Below, one piece after another: positions 1 to 41,363 of a DNA stretch of 64,000 nt (positions are counted from its first letter, which is position 1; every line of letters begins with the position of its first letter). The notes below the pieces were generated by a model. That model saw only the letters and a program-made list of their open reading frames with translations, was not told the origin of the DNA and searched no databases. The DNA is taken from NCBI GenBank assembly GCA_034401135.1, contig JAWZSP010000001.1, positions 2,542,001 to 2,606,000 of the forward strand, in the 5' to 3' direction. Source of the stretch: Volutella citrinella (lineage: Eukaryota > Ascomycota > Sordariomycetes > Hypocreales > Nectriaceae). A program made the position numbers and the translations under genes.

Positions 1-1691
1 CGAAGGAAGGCGAAGCGGGCAGAGCATCCCAAGGGGCGGCAATAAAGTCCACCAGGGAGACGGAGAACTTTGCCAATCGCTCCTTGTTCTTGCTATCGAG
101 CTTTGGGTGGTAAAGGGCTCGAATGCGCTGGATGACTGTAGGGATGCTGCTGGGGGGATATTGCGACACGACGTCGCAAAACTCCTTGCAAGAAGCGGGA
201 CAGGGAAACGTGTAGGGAAGTCCGTTTTCGTCGCCCTTCTGGATGGCGGAAGCCCTGGCGGAGGAATCCTCGTCAAAGACGGGATTTCTTGCTTCCTCCT
301 CGTTAAGCAGGCCTTTGGTAAAGTCATCGTCGTCCAGACCCTCGTCGGCCTCTTCCCCAGAAGCCTCGGAATCGTCCTCATCGTCGCTGTCGATGAGCTC
401 CAGGTCGGAGCCACTGGCGACCAGATCGTCATCGATGATGAAATCATCTTCATCGTCGAAGCCCAATTCCGTCGCAGTGGGTCGAGCCTTGATTCCTGTT
501 CCCAGACCAAAGTCCTCTTCGTCTTGATCAAAGTCCATGGATTCGGGGTCTTTGGAGCCGCCCTCCTCCTTCTCACTCTCGTCTTCACTGTCAGTCACTT
601 CCTCACCCCTCATACGTCTCTGGCGCTTGTCCTCAAGCTCCTCTAGACGTTTAGACTCCTCCTCGGCCTTTTCGTCTTCCGTCTTGGTGCGATCGGATGG
701 CTGGGCTCTTCGGTCTTGTGCCAACTTCTTCACCTCCAAGTCGAATTGCCTCTCAAAAGCGGATCTCTCCACTCCAGCAATGGTGGCTGATTTTGATTCC
801 TCCGCGGGACGGCCCCTCGCATTCTGATGGCCCTGGGAGAGAAGTATCTGAATACTTGAGAGCTCCTTGTCGAGTTCTGCTCGCAGATCGTCGTCTTGAT
901 CCTTGGCCGCTTGTCGCTCGTACTTGTGCATCTTGGACTTGGCGATGACCTCCTCCATGACTTCCTTCTTCGTCTTCTTTCGGTCCGGCTCTCCATTTTC
1001 CCCGCTGTCCTCTGCGTCGCCGTCCTGGGCGGTCATAGCGCGAACTCGCTTCAGTCGTTGCATCTCTCGAACAGAGCCGTCGCTGTCATAATCCTCATCG
1101 AGGTCCTCTTCTTGGAAATCGTCGTTGTCGAAAGTCAATGACTTGCCCAAATGGGTCAGTCCCTCTGAGGGCTCATCATCCTCAAGGTCGAATAGGGAGC
1201 CCTTCTTGTGGCTCCGTTGCTTTTCGCGAGCGAACCGCTCCAGCATCTTCTCCTCGGGTGTCATGTTCGGGTCGTCTTCACCGAATCGACGATCGATGAT
1301 GCCTCCGACTTTGTTCCGGCGTTGCATCTCAACGAGCAGGGTTTCTCGGCGCTGTAAAAAATCAGTCTGCTGTTGGCGTATACGTCTCGTCAAAGCTCAC
1401 CCTCTCCTCGCCCGCGGCCTTTGCCTGACCAGGCCGACCCTTGATTCCGCCGGCGGGACCGGTTGGTCGGTTACTAGTGACTTCGAACTTGGGCGCACGC
1501 GCATGTTTGAGATCGAAGGGATTGAACTGCTCCCGGATACCTTCCAACACCACCCCGCGTTGGAGCCGCTTTTCAGTTCGAGCGCCAACATCCTGAGCGG
1601 CGCGTCGCCTCTGCTTCTTTGATTGCTGTGGTCCGGTGATACCCTGCTCTCTCAAGGACGCCTTGAGGCGTTTGAGCTGCGAGCCAGCCAT
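1..1691 (-). CDS. NOP14: Nucleolar complex protein 14 (Nop14), 5' part, cut by left window edge
   Basis: Nop14 is a nucleolar factor of the small-subunit processome needed for 18S rRNA maturation and 40S assembly. The start is the ATG at 1691 (protein begins MAGSQLKRLKASLREQGITG). Exon 1 is 1691-1401. A 49-nt GT-AG intron spans 1400-1352, and exon 2 runs from 1351 past the window edge, open throughout. About 547 residues are visible, so the C-terminal part is missing. The visible protein has the basic N-terminus typical of the family, including a VLEGIREQFNPFDLKHA block. Next come an RRNKVGGIIDRRFGEDDP block and long acidic Asp/Glu-rich stretches, as expected for nucleolar proteins. It is divergent from the gene starting at 2027. 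The assignment rests on these N-terminal blocks; the diagnostic C-terminal half is outside the window. Confidence 0.9.
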
Positions 1692-13785: not shown

Positions 13786-13793
13786 AAAAAAAA
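13786..13793 (-). terminator. RNA polymerase III terminator (T8) of initiator tRNA copy A
   Basis: Eight A residues on the plus strand read as T8 on the minus strand. They begin 7 nt after the 3' end of the mature tRNA sequence at 13801. A run of four or more T is the standard Pol III stop, so this supports a functional Pol III unit. Confidence 0.8.
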
Positions 13794-13800
13794 TACAACG

Positions 13801-13925
13801 TAGCAATTGCACGTTTCGATCGTGCGACCTCCGGGTTATGAGCCCGGCTGAGGAGTATTAGATATTTGTCGTGACTTTTTAGACAAGGTTGTGTACATAC
13901 CGCGCTTCCACTGCGCCAAATTGCT
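13801..13925 (-). tRNA. Initiator tRNA-Met (CAU), copy A, interrupted at position 26/27
   Basis: The two exon parts are 13925-13901 (25 nt) and 13847-13801 (47 nt). Joined, they form a 72-nt tRNA with perfect pairing: acceptor AGCAATT/AATTGCT, D stem GCGC/GCGC, anticodon stem CCGGG/CCCGG, loop CTCATAA (anticodon CAT), and T stem GCACG/CGTGC. Initiator hallmarks are present: the A1-T72 pair, three G-C pairs next to the anticodon loop, and the T loop ATCGAAA (A54, A60). The layout is the same length as yeast initiator tRNA. The gene carries a 53-nt GT-AG insertion between positions 26 and 27 instead of the usual 37/38. An oligo-T terminator follows. The 3' CCA is not encoded, as expected in eukaryotes. 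Confidence 0.93.
13848..13900 (-). other. Spliceosomal-type intron in initiator tRNA copy A (53 nt)
   Basis: On the minus strand the insertion begins GTATGTACAC and ends ACTCCTCAG, with a branch-like TCTAAT about 11 nt before the end. These signals match those of the protein-gene introns in this window. It interrupts the tRNA between G26 and C27, where tRNA splicing endonuclease introns are not found in nuclear tRNAs. Confidence 0.8.
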
Positions 13926-15368
13926 TTGTGGTTGTGATGGATTGTGGGTGTTATTGCGGGTTAAACGGGTCACGGAGATGCAGAATGTGAGGGCTGAGGG
14001 GCCAGCCCTGGTGGGGATTATTGCCCAGAATTATTGCCCAGCTTGTGAGTCACTTTGCAGGTTGCGGAACAAGCTCAAGTGGGGTGGCCTCGTCAACACA
14101 AACTGTGAACAAGGGTTCCTTGCTCAAATTACATCGGGGTTGCGCTGGGAGGAATGAGTGTTGAATGCAATAGAGCAAAAGCGTAGTGGAAATACAACCC
14201 TGTCAACGTCATTTACATACCACAACCGAAAGCTGCCTTACCCTATGTCCAAAGCCGGTATAGTCTCAAAGTCTTGCAGTATCCAGCGGATAGTCTCTTC
14301 AAATTAACAGATCTCCCTGGGTAATTCTGATTTACTAATTATAAACCACTGCTGTTGGGTGAGTTTTCTGATGCTTAGGGTAAGAAATGCCTTGTGAACT
14401 TTCAGCAAGGCTATGTATAAGAGAATAAGTATGGCTCCAGTATGCAAGAAAGCAATTTGGCGCAGTGGAAGCCACGTTTCGTCTGAATAATTTCTAGATA
14501 TAACTTAACTACTCTCCGGTTCTGGGTTAAAAGTAGTTAAATACATTGATATCGTTGGCCAATAACGTCGTTCTGCTGTGAGGCGAGGAAAAATTGGTGA
14601 CAGTGAGGCAGCGGCAGCACTAACGCGGACCCATACCGTAGGGAAAGGACCACACCCGACTTTTTGGGATTGAAACTCCGTATAACGTCGTTAAAAACAT
14701 ATTTGTGATAACCATGACATGTCGTATTGTAAATAAACACAATAATGGTACTAAGTTAGGAGTCGTCCTTTATCCATCACTTCTAGCTGTAGAATTGGGG
14801 TGTCCAGAAGCTGATGATAGCTCCGCGAGGTATGGCAAGAAGAAAAAAATGGATGACGACAAATGGGATCAGAATATCTATAGTAGAGAGCAGCCGGGTA
14901 CTGCCTTGAACTGTGAAGCTTCTAGGCTGGTGCTATATACAACAAGGCCTGTGGGTGCGGCAAGGACACCACCAACACTGGCCGATCACAGTGAAGAAGG
15001 GTATGCAAAGGCCATAATACAAAACTCCATCAAGTAAATATTCCCATTAATTAATACCAGTAGGTGTTTAATTACCTGTCGATATTCCCAAGGTCTCGCA
15101 TCGTCGCGGCGCCCAACCAGAGGTGCTACCTGTGGAAACCCGCTTCCAGAGTCGCTCCTTCCTCGTCAACAGGTTGCAAGCACACCCGCCCAATGGCCGT
15201 CCTTACGTAGATTCGTTCCTTCCAGCTGTTGAGAAACACGGTCATGGAAGCGTAGACGTCTTGCCCGTAGTCAACCGAAAATCCCAAACTCTCATTCCCA
15301 AACCACAGCCTTCAAGCCCAAGCCTACCTTCCTCGATCTCGTTTTTTTTTTCTTTTTTCGTTTTAAAG
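13926..15368. other. Gene-poor spacer between initiator tRNA copy A and the orphan gene
   Basis: This 1.4-kb stretch is locally AT-rich (especially 14160-14560 and 14640-15060) with no credible ORF. It contains a truncated initiator-tRNA 5' half at 14451-14472. A 12-nt direct duplication of ATTATTGCCCAG lies near 14018-14041. A pyrimidine-rich tract at 15300-15368, including a long T run, leads directly to the next start codon. Confidence 0.5.
14451..14472 (+). pseudogene. Truncated initiator tRNA-Met 5' half
   Basis: Twenty-two bases are identical to the first 22 nt of the three intact initiator tRNA copies (acceptor 5' strand, D arm). The match ends at GGAAGC. The next nine bases (CACGTTTCG) match the antisense of the T arm, so the breakpoint may be an inverted junction. 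No anticodon arm or oligo-T terminator follows. This is a decayed or rearranged fourth copy. Confidence 0.75.
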
Positions 15369-16532
15369 ATGTCAACCGAGCGTGCGCGCCTTCTTCTTGC
15401 CGAGCTCCTCAAGGAGGAGGGTGTGTCTGCCGTGCTTCTGCCGACCATGGGTGGTCGGATTGGTGTGCGTCTCGAACTGAGTGCTGGAGAGGAGGAGGAG
15501 AAGGAGATCAAGGCCCTTTTCGGCACCGACAGTAAGTTGGCATTCAAACACACAATGTCACAAAGCTTCTAACAAACTATAGAGCTTTCTCTCCGTCAGG
15601 GAACCAAGAGAAAGGCCGAGGATGATGCTGCTGAGGTTGCCGACGACGAGGACGAGGATGAGGAGCAACTCCTCGAAATCTTCAAGCACAACTCTGGTCG
15701 AGCATGTCATAAGCTCCGCCCAGATGTTTGGACCTCTCATGGAAAGTGGACAAGGCTCTACAAGCACCTCGAGGGTCGTGTCGAGAAGGAAACATCGGGT
15801 GCGGGCGGCAGTCACGGCCGAGTGACCAACCGACCCTTTGTCAGCCATTTTGTTTTGAATGGTGTTATGGTACAGGCTGGATTCGTTCAACAGCAGGCGG
15901 ATGATTATGTTCGCATAATCATTGGGTTTACTCGCGCCAGCTCTCTTCCGCCTACCTACCACGCCATTGGGATGTTCCGCTGCGCCGCGACTGCGGCGAA
16001 GGCATGGTCTGCTCTTGAGCCGACCAGAACAGCTCTGATCACGGCGCTTCCTCGGGCCCGTGTCGCAAGCAAATGGCCATTGCAAGAATCGCGAGCCCTC
16101 ACCTCGGAAATGATTCGGGTTCTGGACGCAGCGGCAGACGGCATGACCGTCGAACTCCTCTCAGTAGGGATCGATGGGTTAACAACAGACGTCTCGAGTT
16201 TTCAATGGCTCCAAAGTACTTGGGGCCAGCGTCTCCGTCTCCGCCTTGTCGCTGTTGTCTCAGCTGAGTTTCCTGGTTCGTTGGAAGCTTTTCCGGTAGC
16301 GTCCAATGGAATTCGGTACGGTGTCTTCGAACTGGTTGAGATTTGCCAGGTACTCGGCAACGACCAGGCTCCCGGAAACGCCGCTTCGAAAACATTGGTT
16401 CAGCTCATCCGAACCGTCCGAGAGATGAAAAATGATCGTGATGAAGGGTATACCCCGCTCAACAGGCTGACTTCTGGTCGCGCAGACTTTCGAGTTTGCC
16501 CGTTGTCGCCGACTGAGTCTGGAGCCGACTAG
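15369..16532 (+). CDS. Hypothetical protein, unrecognised
   Basis: Two exons, 15369-15531 and 15583-16532, join in frame across a 51-nt intron (GTAAGT donor, CTAAC branch, TAG acceptor) to give 370 residues. The ATG follows a pyrimidine-rich leader ending in TTTTAAAG. The N-terminus MSTERARLLLAELLKEEGVS is a likely helix. It is followed by a Lys/Arg patch (KRKAEDD) and an acidic Asp/Glu run encoded just after the intron. The rest is mixed alpha/beta in composition with no motif I recognise. There is no signal peptide or membrane span. It lies between initiator-tRNA copies in an otherwise gene-poor stretch, so it may be lineage-specific. Consistent splice signals and a 316-codon open second exon argue that it is real. 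Confidence 0.65.
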
Positions 16533-18044
16533 AACACTCGACTTTCTCGCGCATTCTTTTACAGAGTTGTGTCATCCATGTGGTTCTAGCTCCAAGTCCA
16601 TCCAATCAATTTCTCATATCGCTAGATTCTTGCGCACCCAAAGACTATGGACAGGTCAAAGTGTCCCTCCTATCAGGTCATGGATAGGTTGTCTTTTTGT
16701 ACAGTGAAGAAAATAACTGTACAGGTGGCGACTGATTTGCAACCGTTGCATACAGTCTAATCCCAGGCCCTGACACAGCTGGAGGATAAGCCACCACCGT
16801 CTTTGTACTAGCTGGACTTGACTGAGCTTTGGGGTCTTGAGGCCTGACGATTGATGGCTCCCTCGAATGCTTACGATATGATGCTATCTTTTGAGAGAAG
16901 GACCTGCCGCTGGATGGTCTACTCTCTCGATGCCAGGAGGTCTTGAGATCTTATGACGAAGGACTCTCTCTTACACTCAAGACATGTCGCCTATTGCCGA
17001 GTATCCCCTTGGGTGATTCGTCCTTTCAGTGTCTGGAGGTCTTGAGGTCTGACTTTTGACGACTCCCTCCTGTAAATGTGGTATATCGCCTACGCTCGCA
17101 TCGGCCGCTGGATTATCCTCTTACATTTTCTGGAGGACTTCCGAGGCCTTGGTGTCCTACATTTCAAAACGTCTTCCCTGGTTTCGACCAACGTGAAAGC
17201 CTGGTAGTCGACAACTCCTTCAAACCTGTGCCGTTCTTGGCTCTTCTGGACTTGTCGCCCTCTGATCCAATATTGGTATTGTCAGCCAGTTCCGGAAGCC
17301 TCGAGCACTGGCGTTCAGTGCCTTCTTCGACACACAATCTAAGGGGTGGCATGCGCATTTTACGAACACCCGAGAGAAATCGATGGTGAAAATGCTGCCA
17401 ACGCATTTCTTTGCCACAGAGACTGGCTGGGTTGATTTCGATAAGCGCCGGCGTTTTTGTTGGGCACATGGGTCTACTTCTGGCTGAACCATGTCGAGCC
17501 TGCTGTCCGATTGACCTTGGGCTACCGGTACCTCTCAATACACTGCGTCACCATGCTCACCATGCACAAAGAGATATGTGCTCCCTCTCGAAGTGGCTGA
17601 TGCTTCTTCTCACACTCGCATTTGGGCTTCTTTTTGCACACAGATGTGATTGTCTTCACACAGGGATTGAAGGATGGGTGGATTTTTCTTGTTTTTCCAC
17701 CTGCCGCTCCGTCTGCGAGTGATCCGGTGATTCCTCGTGCCCCCACCGAAGCCGCCTCCGAGTTTGGAAGCCACCACGATACGTACGAGCCATGCCCTTG
17801 GGGTGCCCCTCATCTTGCACACTCTCGCGCTCTACCTACCTGAGCAAACAAGGCCGGCCCAACCAGTTTGGGAAGATCATTCCCCTTGACACCTCCATTC
17901 TGAACTCAAGATCCCTGTGCACATCGCCTACTCGCGTATCCACATCGCATTGGCTGCAATTTTTCAAGCAGTTGCCTAGAAACAAGCGGGAGAATTGGCC
18001 AGGGGTATACATTCCAAAATAAAAGCCTTCTATACAAGCAACAA
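16533..18044. other. Gene-poor spacer with degenerate tandem repeat
   Basis: No convincing coding sequence. The part 16825-17140 is an old ~100-nt tandem repeat, described separately. The short frames at 17078-17389 and 17411-17722 lack family similarity, introns or good context and are probably chance. The sequence runs into initiator tRNA copy B at 18045. Confidence 0.5.
16825..17140. repeat. Degenerate tandem repeat, unit about 100 nt, three to four copies
   Basis: A core of GG(A/G)GTCTTGAGG(C/T)CTGA followed by a GACGACTCCCTC-like segment recurs near 16831, 16936 and 17035, with a weaker copy near 17125. Inter-core spacings are about 105, 99 and 90 nt. Between the cores, a CGCTGGAT...TCT segment and a TGTCGCCTA/TATCGCCTA segment also recur. 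Divergence is high, so the array is old. No coding potential is preserved. Confidence 0.6.
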
Positions 18045-18168
18045 AGCAATTTGGCGCAGTGGAAGCGCGGTATGTGTCTCTCAAGTCACCAACAGATTGA
18101 ACTTGTACTAACTCATACCAGCCGGGCTCATAACCCGGAGGTCGCACGATCGAAACGTGCAATTGCTA
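18045..18168 (+). tRNA. Initiator tRNA-Met (CAU), copy B, interrupted at position 26/27
   Basis: The exon parts are 18045-18069 and 18122-18168. They are identical to copies A and C and join to a perfect 72-nt initiator tRNA with anticodon CAT. The A box (TGGCGCAGTGG) is in the first part and the B-box region (GATCGAAAC) in the second, so the insertion lengthens their separation by 52 nt. A T6 run follows at 18181-18186. The upstream flank has AT-rich TATA-like words (around 18016-18035), which can assist Pol III in fungi. Confidence 0.93.
18070..18121 (+). other. Spliceosomal-type intron in initiator tRNA copy B (52 nt)
   Basis: The insertion begins GTATGTGTCT and ends ACTCATACCAG, with a perfect yeast-like branch sequence TACTAAC about 11 nt before the end. 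Apart from these signals it shows no extended similarity to the insertions in copies A and C. Confidence 0.85.
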
Positions 18169-18180
18169 GCACAGTATTTC

Positions 18181-18186
18181 TTTTTT
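18181..18186 (+). terminator. RNA polymerase III terminator (T6) of initiator tRNA copy B
   Basis: A T6 run lies 12 nt after the tRNA 3' end, preceded by TTTC. This fits a Pol III stop. Confidence 0.75.
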
Positions 18187-18375
18187 GCATTTGTCGCGAA
18201 TTCCTTTGTGGAGCAATGATGTTCTTTAAATGCTCCTGTTCACTTAGCTTCGCTATTTTTATGTCTTAGGTGCGCCATTGTTGGCCGTTAAAGCACCTGC
18301 ACGGTCGATGTCTGCTTGGGTGGGAATACCCAACGTCTCAAACCGGCAAAAAGCAGCGTGTACGCGCACAAGGGC

Positions 18376-18382
18376 AAAAAAA
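18376..18382 (-). terminator. Possible RNA polymerase III terminator (T7) of initiator tRNA copy C
   Basis: Seven A on the plus strand are T7 on the minus strand, 31 nt beyond the tRNA 3' end. That is more distant than usual, so the primary transcript would have a longer trailer. Confidence 0.55.
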
Positions 18383-18413
18383 GATATGTTCGAGTACAAC
18401 TCGATGCAACCGC

Positions 18414-18542
18414 TAGCAATTGCACGTTTCGATCGTGCGACCTCCGGGTTATGAGCCCGGCTGAGGGACAAGTTAGCCAATGATATCAAATACTGAGATC
18501 ATGCTGGGGGTACATACCGCGCTTCCACTGCGCCAAATTGCT
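18414..18542 (-). tRNA. Initiator tRNA-Met (CAU), copy C, interrupted at position 26/27
   Basis: The exon parts are 18542-18518 and 18460-18414 and are identical to those of copies A and B. The joined product is the same 72-nt initiator tRNA with A1-T72, the three G-C pairs beside the anticodon loop and the ATCGAAA T loop. A 57-nt GT-AG insertion separates G26 from C27. The first good oligo-T run is 31 nt downstream. Confidence 0.92.
18461..18517 (-). other. Spliceosomal-type intron in initiator tRNA copy C (57 nt)
   Basis: On the minus strand the insertion begins GTATGTACCC and ends TTGTCCCTCAG, with a GGCTAAC branch-like site about 13 nt before the end. Its middle is unrelated to the insertions of copies A and B. 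Confidence 0.83.
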
Positions 18543-38971: not shown

Positions 38972-41363
38972 ATGGCTTCTTCTATGGCAATGAGGCGACT
39001 GGCCGCCAGCCCTGCCGTACGTTTTGGTTGCTGAACCTTTTCCCACTCCCTCCCGGACCAGCGTCTCCGCGCTGGCAACGGCCTCACCCGCCCGACGCTG
39101 TCCCTGATTGTCCGCATCGCTGACTGAGCTCTTGTTACAGTTCTCGCGCGCTGCGAGGTTCCCGACCCGTGCCTTCTCGACCACTCGACCGGCTGGTAAG
39201 TCTTCTCCTGCCCTCACGGCGCAATCGCAGTCAATTGAATTGATTGTGCCGACGTGCCTCTGCAAGCCCAGTTTGGCTGACCATAACTTCGCACAACAGC
39301 CCGTGTCATCGCCAATGGCCCTCTCCGTGCCAAGGAGGCGTCTCCCTTTGTGAGCGACAAGTACGCCGTCATTGTATGCCTCCCCTTCTCCCCTCCTCCG
39401 CCCCACGGAGCCCAGCTCTGAACTCAATTGACTCCTCATAGGACCACGAGTACGATGCCCTCGTCGTTGGTGCCGGTGGCTCCGGTCTCCGAGCTGCCTT
39501 CGGTCTGGCTGAGGCCGGCTTCAACACCGCTTGTATTTCCAAGCTCTTCCCGACCCGAAGCCACACTGTCGCTGCTCAGGGTGGTATCAATGCTGCCCTG
39601 GGCAACATGCACGAGGATGACTGGCGATGGCACATGTACGACACCGTCAAGGGCTCCGACTGGCTCGGTGACCAGGACGCCATTCACTACATGACCCGTG
39701 AGGCTCCCGCCTCGATTGTCGAGCTTGAGAACTACGGCTGCCCCTTCTCGCGAACCGAAGACGGCAAGATGTGAGTTGGACGAGAGAGCTGCGAACCGTT
39801 CGCTGGTCCATTTTGCTAACCACGTCCCACCTTCCAGCTACCAGCGAGCCTTCGGTGGTCAGTCCCAGAAGTTCGGCAAGGGTGGCCAGGCCTACCGATG
39901 CTGCGCTGCCGCTGACCGAACCGGCCACGCCCTTCTTCACACCCTCTACGGCCAGTCCCTGCGCCACAACACCAACTACTTCATCGAGTACTTCGCTCTC
40001 GACCTGATCATGGAGGACGGCGAGTGCCGAGGTGTCTTGGCCTACAACCAGGAGGACGGCACTCTCCACCGATTCCTCGCCAACCACACCGTCCTCGCCA
40101 CTGGTGGATACGGCCGAGCCTACTTCAGCTGCACGTCCGCCCACACCTGCACTGGTGACGGCATGGCAATGGTTGCCCGTGCTGGTCTTCCCAACCAGGA
40201 TCTCGAGTTCGTCCAGTTCCACCCCACTGGTATCTACGGTGCCGGCTGTCTCATCACCGAGGGAGCTCGTGGTGAGGGTGGTTATCTGCTCAACTCTGAG
40301 GGTGAGCGCTTCATGGAGCGATACGCCCCTACCGCCAAGGATCTGGCCTCTCGTGACGTCGTCTCCCGATCGATGACGATGGAGATCCGTGACGGCCGTG
40401 GTGTCGGCCCCGACAAGGACCACATCTACCTCCAGCTTAGCCACCTGCCCGCCGAGATTCTTGCTGAGCGTCTGCCCGGTATTTCCGAGACGGCTGGCAT
40501 TTTCGCCGGTGTCGATGTCCGAAAGCAGCCCATTCCTGTCCTGCCCACCGTCCACTACAACATGGGTGGTATTCCCACCCGCTACACCGGTGAGGTTCTT
40601 ACCGTTGACGAGGCTGGCAACGACAAGATTGTCCCTGGTCTGTACGCTTGTGGTGAGGCTGCTTGCGTGTCTGTTCACGGTGCCAACCGCCTGGGTGCCA
40701 ACTCCCTGCTGGATCTTGTCGTCTTCGGCCGTGCCGTCTCCCACACCATCCGTGACAAGTTCAACCCCGGTGATAAGCTGAAGCCCATCCCTGCCGATGC
40801 CGCCGCCGATCACATCGAGGTGCTCGACAAGGCCCGAACCGCCGACGGCCCCATGACCACTGCCGAGATCCGTCTGGCCATGCAGAAGGCCATGCAGACT
40901 GAAGTCAGCGTGTTCCGAACCCAGGAGAGCTTGGACGAGGGTGTCCGCAAGATGACCGATATCGATCAGATGTACAGCAAGGTCGGCACCAAGGACCGCA
41001 GCATGATCTGGAACTCTGACCTGGTCGAGACCCTGGAGCTCCGAAACCTCCTGACCTGCGCGTAAGTTGACCCGCTCTCGTGGCAAATCCCCACCCCGGA
41101 AAACACTCTCTACTTGAATGGTGACTGACTCGAGCCCGTACAGCGTCCAAACCGCCACCTCTGCCGCCAACCGAAAGGAGTCGCGTGGTGCTCACGCCCG
41201 CGAGGACTTCCCCGACCGTGACGACGAGAACTGGATGAAGCACACCCTGTCCTTCCAGAAGGACCCCCACGGCCCTGTGGAGCTCAAGTACCGCAAGGTC
41301 ATCTCCACGACTCTCGACGAGAACGAGTGCAAGCCCGTGCCGCCCTTCAAGCGTGTATACTAG
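38972..41363 (+). CDS. SDH1: Succinate dehydrogenase flavoprotein subunit, mitochondrial
   Basis: Six exons, 38972-39016, 39141-39195, 39300-39373, 39442-39770, 39838-41061 and 41144-41363, give 648 residues. Sdh1 is the catalytic subunit of complex II, oxidising succinate to fumarate in the TCA cycle and passing electrons to ubiquinone. The first ~50 residues are Arg/Ser/Ala-rich without acids, a typical mitochondrial presequence. The FAD Rossmann motif GAGGSG is at 68-73. His99, in [11 protein letters not shown], is the covalent FAD attachment site. Substrate-site blocks HPTGIYGAG and EGARGEGG are intact, as is [13 protein letters not shown] near the C-terminal FAD contact. Codon use is strongly C-biased, as in highly expressed genes, which also creates a long antisense open frame. 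Three tiny 5' exons encoding the presequence are usual for this gene in Sordariomycetes. Confidence 0.97.

Follow-up and report, generated by a model that had tools for sequence, protein, structure and literature searches.

Introns of the mRNA type reportedly interrupt the U6 small nuclear RNA (snRNA) of S. pombe and other fungi, as is said to have been described by Tani and Ohshima in 1989/1991 and by Canzler et al. in 2016. The present analysis concerns the initiator tRNA-Met genes in a 64,000-nucleotide stretch of Volutella citrinella DNA (C1:2542001-2606000; hereafter the window), which is part of a genome of 45,099,969 bases in 26 contigs (G000 in the table). According to an extract from a paper of 2017 (PMC5832005), no small structured RNAs other than U3 and U6 have so far been known to contain an intron frequently, and a partial text of PMC10484740 states that the U6 intron is believed to have arisen by reverse splicing close to the catalytic bases. 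With respect to tRNA, the available portion of PMC4090602 describes non-canonical introns as supposedly rare in eukaryotes, except in nucleomorphs and a red alga, and mentions archaeal introns at non-canonical positions, 25/26 being an example. The same portion states that the eukaryotic splicing endonuclease is able to cut bulge-helix-bulge (BHB) substrates and that a ruler mechanism, with the tRNA body as the point of reference, is ascribed to this enzyme. All copies of the initiator tRNA-Met gene found in V. citrinella probably represent functional genes for RNA polymerase III (Pol III) that carry a U2-type intron between G26 and C27, which would be removed by the spliceosome, making this organism obligately dependent on splicing for its initiator tRNA; we put the probability of this reading at roughly 0.87. 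We infer the transcription, the splicing and the splicing machinery of these genes from DNA sequence.

Interrupted initiator tRNA-Met genes

Three initiator tRNA-Met loci were present in the window (13801-13925, minus strand; 18045-18168, plus strand; and 18414-18542, minus strand). Each consists of an exon 1 of 25 nucleotides (nt), ending with G26 in standard numbering, and an exon 2 of 47 nt, together 72 nt including the discriminator A73, and these exons are separated by an insert of 53, 52 and 57 nt, respectively. Upon re-reading of the sequence, the loci, their coordinates, the split 72-nt tRNA and the insert sizes were as given in an earlier description made from the letters alone (the sequence-only reading). 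The hallmarks of a eukaryotic initiator tRNA-Met are a CAT anticodon, an A1:U72 pair, three G:C pairs adjoining the anticodon loop, and A54 and A60, and each of these could be read directly in the sequence. Indeed, ARAGORN recognized the joined exons as a tRNA-Met(cat) with a cloverleaf. The genome as a whole yielded five cytosolic initiator tRNA-Met genes, namely the three of the window and one each on C6 and C7, and all five were interrupted at position 26/27 instead of at 37/38, the position of tRNA-endonuclease introns; owing to a shared G, a junction placed one base earlier fits as well.

The exons, the ends of the inserts and the remainder of the inserts behave differently. Firstly, all 72 exon bases are identical across the five copies, whereas the 200-nt flanks are 49-57% alike, the baseline for this comparison being shuffles of the intron interiors (47-50%) and not of the flanks. 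As the exons are identical despite dissimilar flanks, they look selected. Secondly, the inserts start with GTATGT and end with CAG, not only in the three window copies, for which this had been claimed before, but in all five copies of the genome. In addition, a CTAAC or CTAAT motif occurs in each insert and places the branch A 10-12 nt before the end of the insert; the branch-like motifs noticed earlier in the three window copies were confirmed, with their branch A at 10, 10 and 12 nt. With GTATGT and TACTAAC, the intron of copy 2 carries the consensus signals of S. cerevisiae. The chance of finding GTATGT, a branch motif and CAG together is approximately 3e-8 per insert, given the base composition of the inserts (G-poor, 14%) and motifs that were chosen after inspection. 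Thirdly, the intron interiors resemble each other at the level of shuffled sequences in nine of the ten pairs (z of -1.4 to 1.5), with the interiors of the C6-C7 pair being 68% alike (z of 4.3). The inserts thus combine an extended 5' splice site with GT-AG ends, a CTRAY branch motif and a freely diverging interior, as U2-type introns do. Conserved signals in otherwise diverged introns are the pattern expected when the spliceosome removes them, and this contrast between the drifting interiors and the unchanged exons and splice signals forms the main argument in support of spliceosomal removal.

The five genes further possess an A box in exon 1 and a B box in exon 2 (both located by eye), T6-T8 runs that start downstream at +8, +13, +32, +19 and +28, and no internal T-run longer than three. 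An A box, a B box, a T-run terminator and the absence of a long internal T-run are the characteristics of a Pol III tRNA gene, and the interrupted genes would qualify as such. Standard tools did not recognize them, as neither a default ARAGORN run nor Rfam at the gathering threshold called a tRNA in the window, and permitting introns led ARAGORN to mislabel the initiator genes as Gly, Val or Pyl. The split genes hence expose a blind spot in standard tRNA detection, and the same arrangement may be overlooked in relatives.

The sequence-only reading had named an intact initiator tRNA elsewhere as the finding that would speak against it. No uninterrupted initiator tRNA-Met was found in the 45.1 Mb by BLAST and half-gene patterns with up to three mismatches. 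BLAST with the joined exons as query returned ten pieces, corresponding with the five loci, and the exact 3'-half pattern matched five times genome-wide. Allowing three mismatches in the 3' half gave the same five only (backward control, one chance match), and the 5'-half pattern with one mismatch gave the five and C8:1625583 (L055; backward control, one). The latter was rejected as an initiator tRNA, since ARAGORN found no tRNA there and it is coding-like by eye. Other tRNA-Met genes occur on C16, in DNA read as mitochondrial; the order of the mitochondrial-like tRNAs and the ITS of this genome would fit Hypocreales. Finally, the eukaryotic initiator 3' half had no match in a genome-contig collection and none in a viral-contig collection, both of which were scanned for possible fungal contaminants.

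Besides the complete genes, the window contains a truncated initiator exon 1 (Table), the first 22 of 25 nt of which are exact, with a similar upstream stretch. At the break, this sequence continues as a 9-nt stretch that matches the T arm in inverted orientation (CACGTTTCG). It looks like a rearranged relic.

Introns in other genes of the genome

Spliceosomal-type introns were also encountered in U6 and U3 genes. The Rfam search for U6 yielded four matches, of which L039 and L040 scored over the cut-off, L041 scored 43.2 versus 44 bits, and L042 was at chance level. L041 is a U6 gene that is interrupted by two mRNA-type introns; without these, a U6 core with ACAGAGA is left that aligns with L039 and L040. 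Its first intron holds a B-box-like GGTTCGAAAACC, and a B-box-like element inside the U6 intron is a feature of S. pombe U6 as well. L039 and L040 are uninterrupted U6-like copies, both followed by T-runs, with GCATTTCCCC at the site of GCATGGCCCC in L041; they may be either variant U6 genes or processed pseudogenes. Similarly, two U3 genes (L069 and L070) were found among the best 24 of 650 candidates scored, with introns of 177 and 88 nt after GTCGACAATACTTCA that read GTATGT...GCTAAC...GCAG. The pattern for these introns required GT, CTAAC and CAG, without imposing GTATGT, and this 5' splice site is common to the U3 and initiator introns. Together with the GTATGT introns of the two U3 genes, the interrupted U6 gene provides an internal precedent for spliceosomal introns in small RNAs.

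Concerning mRNA introns close to the initiator genes, a heuristic intron finder gave one and four candidates in the window under strict settings. Under looser settings, nine GT donors stood against 11, 9 and 7 for the false donors GA, CT and TG; the other two looser settings gave seven GT donors against 8, 8 and 8, and 14 against 17, 18 and 14 false donors. As GT donors were without clear excess over false ones, no 5' splice site consensus of the genome is claimed. One candidate intron lies on each flank of a block matching the succinate dehydrogenase flavoprotein (SDH1), and a third one was listed as well (Table). In searches of the PDB, a PX-protein-type ORF had no match and an eIF3m ORF had remote matches only. 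The earlier claim that the inserts carry the same signals as neighbouring mRNA introns is weakly supported: the two SDH1-flanking introns and the U3 introns agree in kind with the inserts, but the finder returned no clean set.

The canonical type of tRNA intron is present too. ARAGORN detected anticodon-loop introns in Arg-TCG, Lys-TTT, Val-TAC, Ala-TGC and Thr-AGT, and a 5'-half pattern gave nine more tRNA loci with such introns, the length of these introns being 13-24 nt in the tRNAs examined. Within this partial sample of isotypes, tRNAs other than the initiator had ordinary anticodon-loop introns or none; the tRNA profile RF00005 was scored for the best 63 of 1061 candidates. Also, two loci scored above the cut-off for the tRNA splicing endonuclease family PF01974. 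These family matches and the ordinary tRNA introns indicate that the canonical system coexists with the initiator introns. The elongator tRNA-Met was not located by two pattern searches. The first one gave four matches with two mismatches, none of them a tRNA according to ARAGORN, and the second one gave ten matches, one without a tRNA and nine being intron-bearing tRNAs (labelled by ARAGORN as five Trp, three Lys and one Glu), which in our own reading would rather be Lys-CTT. Further, two neighbouring tRNA-Thr(AGT) genes within L004 (at 1272-1365 and 1501-1572, minus strand) share the same mature sequence, but only one of them has an anticodon-loop intron (22 nt), a pair that may point to a young intron gain or loss.

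Table. Positions of initiator tRNA-Met (tRNA-iMet) genes and of other features; positions without a contig name refer to the window.
Feature	Position	Strand	Description
tRNA-iMet copy 1, exon 1	13901..13925	-	25 nt, up to G26; identical in 5 copies
Copy 1, spliceosomal-type intron	13848..13900	-	53 nt, GTATGT...ATCTAATA...CAG
Copy 1, exon 2	13801..13847	-	nt 27-73; CAT anticodon, A54/A60 T-loop, A73
Copy 1, T8 run	13786..13793	-	presumed Pol III terminator
tRNA-iMet copy 2, exon 1	18045..18069	+	
Copy 2, spliceosomal-type intron	18070..18121	+	52 nt, GTATGT...TACTAACT...CAG
Copy 2, exon 2	18122..18168	+	
Copy 2, T6 run	18181..18186	+	presumed Pol III terminator
tRNA-iMet copy 3, exon 1	18518..18542	-	
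Copy 3, spliceosomal-type intron	18461..18517	-	57 nt, GTATGT...GGCTAACT...CAG
Copy 3, exon 2	18414..18460	-	
Copy 3, T7 run	18376..18382	-	presumed Pol III terminator
Initiator copy on C7	G000:C7:313909-314033	+	53-nt insert
Initiator copy on C6	G000:C6:2165952-2166078	-	55-nt insert
Truncated initiator exon 1	14451-14472	+	
Candidate mRNA intron	15532-15582		GTAAGT...CTAAC...TAG
Candidate mRNA intron beside SDH1 block	39771-39837		GTGAGT...GCTAAC...CAG
Candidate mRNA intron, other flank of SDH1 block	41062-41143		GTAAGT...CTGAC...CAG
U6 gene L041	G000:C4:4223888-4224004		two mRNA-type introns
L041, intron 1	C4:4223888-4223937		50 nt, GTACGT...CTGAC...CAG
L041, intron 2	C4:4223949-4224004		56 nt, GTCCGT...GCTAAT...TAG
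U6-like copy L039	G000:C2:4256403-4256508		uninterrupted
U6-like copy L040	G000:C3:5044332-5044432		uninterrupted
U3 gene L069	G000:C7:2231115-2231380		177-nt intron
U3 gene L070	G000:C4:1250439-1250706		88-nt intron

Alternative explanations

A first alternative holds that the tRNA splicing endonuclease (SEN) and a ligase remove the inserts as non-canonical tRNA introns, in the manner of archaea, red algae and nucleomorphs, and that the likeness of the inserts to GT-AG introns is coincidental. Genes for a SEN-type nuclease are present, as mentioned above, and the portion of PMC4090602 cited at the outset, with its 25/26 positions in archaea, its nucleomorph introns outside the anticodon loop and its eukaryotic enzyme that cuts BHB substrates, lends this explanation some ground. 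The ruler mechanism attributed to the eukaryotic enzyme in that same portion, however, argues against it, as do the anticodon-loop introns of 13-24 nt that other tRNAs of this genome carry. Moreover, no perfect BHB was found in the five introns with both junction registers searched, and the best BHB scores were equalled or exceeded by 417-500 of 500 shuffled introns for each of the five copies. Minimum free energy (MFE) folds of the five precursors displayed no common intron structure by eye. The lack of a BHB above chance, together with the position at 26/27, is therefore evidence against SEN, whose action would also leave GTATGT, CTAAY and CAG in five out of five diverged introns unexplained, making this explanation improbable.

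Alternatively, the five genes could be pseudogenes or silent, with an intact initiator gene residing in a place that is unassembled, masked or too diverged. Stretches of N do exist (seen in an rDNA locus), and C9-C26, which were covered by the searches, were otherwise examined only at rDNA, mitochondrial-like and C10 stretches. Nevertheless, silent copies would hardly account for exons that are identical at 72 of 72 bases amid dissimilar flanks; the 3'-half search with three mismatches brought up the same five loci only, and the extra 5'-half match contains no tRNA. Also, C1-C8 (3.5-6.75 Mb each) total 40.1 of the 45.1 Mb, suggesting a near-complete assembly. A hidden intact copy is thus considered very unlikely. 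A functional tRNA that keeps the insert, and whose junction between D-stem and anticodon stem is thereby enlarged, can scarcely be credited, for even if four of the five MFE folds show all four stems despite the insert, the five inserts are dissimilar and without a shared fold, and their splice signals would be meaningless.

Some observations weigh against obligate spliceosomal removal itself. Firstly, no earlier report of a tRNA with a spliceosomal intron was found in the open-licence literature, as judged by title and abstract start among the matches listed, so that the prior is low. Secondly, a copy diverged by more than three bases within the pattern would escape the searches, profile searches score the best candidates only, and some stretches read N. 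Thirdly, the second intron of L041 holds a T5 run, which implies that T5 is no Pol III stop here or that the gene is read through, and which tempers the argument based on short internal T-runs. Fourthly, given the two uninterrupted U6-like copies, U6 need not depend on splicing in this genome. Lastly, folding is ambiguous in two respects: the joined 72 nt do not adopt a cloverleaf in their MFE structure, as the acceptor and T stems form while the D and anticodon arms re-pair; and the acceptor, D, anticodon and T stems persist in four of the five precursor folds (the C6 copy loses its D stem), so that an unusual endonuclease could conceivably cleave the precursor. Taken together, the idea of the sequence-only reading that the spliceosome is used to make the initiator tRNA is nonetheless supported, given that all five copies are interrupted, that signals are kept on diverged introns, that no BHB exceeds chance level, and that U6 and U3 offer a precedent.

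Proposed maturation and comparison with known systems

If the spliceosome indeed matures the initiator tRNA, Pol III would transcribe through the intron, using the A box of exon 1 and the B box of exon 2 and ending at the T-run, to give a precursor of approximately 125 nt. The insertion site would correspond with the hinge between D-stem and anticodon stem. The spliceosome, recognizing GUAUGU, CUAAY and CAG, would excise the intron of 52-57 nt and join the two halves, and end processing would give the tRNA of 72 nt. Since each of the five copies found has its insert at this one site, the initiator supply would be obligately spliceosome-dependent. Because position and signals are shared, a single insertion into an ancestral initiator gene, preceding its duplication, would be the simplest account of the origin of these introns; the exons would have stayed identical while the intron interiors drifted.

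We lean towards the view that this would be the first known case of a tRNA that matures by way of the spliceosome, which would make translation initiation directly dependent on splicing capacity, with a possible regulatory or quality-control link, perhaps clade-wide. The introns of tRNA and mRNA are taught as separate systems with separate machines, and a spliceosome-dependent initiator tRNA, if true, breaks this division, as the one tRNA that no protein can start without would need the spliceosome. Spliceosomal splicing of Pol III RNAs would then reach beyond U6, translation initiation would be tied to splicing, and a case for the entry of introns into non-coding genes would be at hand.

Compared with known systems, the initiator introns share their location outside the anticodon loop with the ectopic tRNA introns of archaea, Cyanidioschyzon and the Guillardia nucleomorph, as far as the available portions of PMC4090602 and PMC3978253 go. 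In these portions, ectopic introns are BHB-guided in archaea and the red alga, the nucleomorph introns measure 3-24 nt, with an excision confirmed by RT-PCR and a mechanism given as unknown, and spliceosomal signals are not mentioned. The canonical eukaryotic tRNA introns, located at 37/38 and handled by the SEN endonuclease and a ligase, likewise occur in multi-copy nuclear tRNA genes, but the initiator inserts differ from them by their position at 26/27, their length of 52-57 nt versus 13-24 nt in this genome, their GT-AG signals and their lack of a BHB. The U3 snoRNA of fungi contains normal spliceosomal introns in a small structured RNA, as indicated by the extract from PMC5832005, although it is a snoRNA and not a tRNA, and its intron is situated in the 5' stem-loop. 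As to the fungal U6 introns, U6 is itself part of the spliceosome, and the reverse splicing mentioned at the outset is placed close to the catalytic bases, whereas a tRNA is without such contact with the active site; both cases nevertheless would have in common a U2-type intron within a small Pol III RNA that is removed by splicing.

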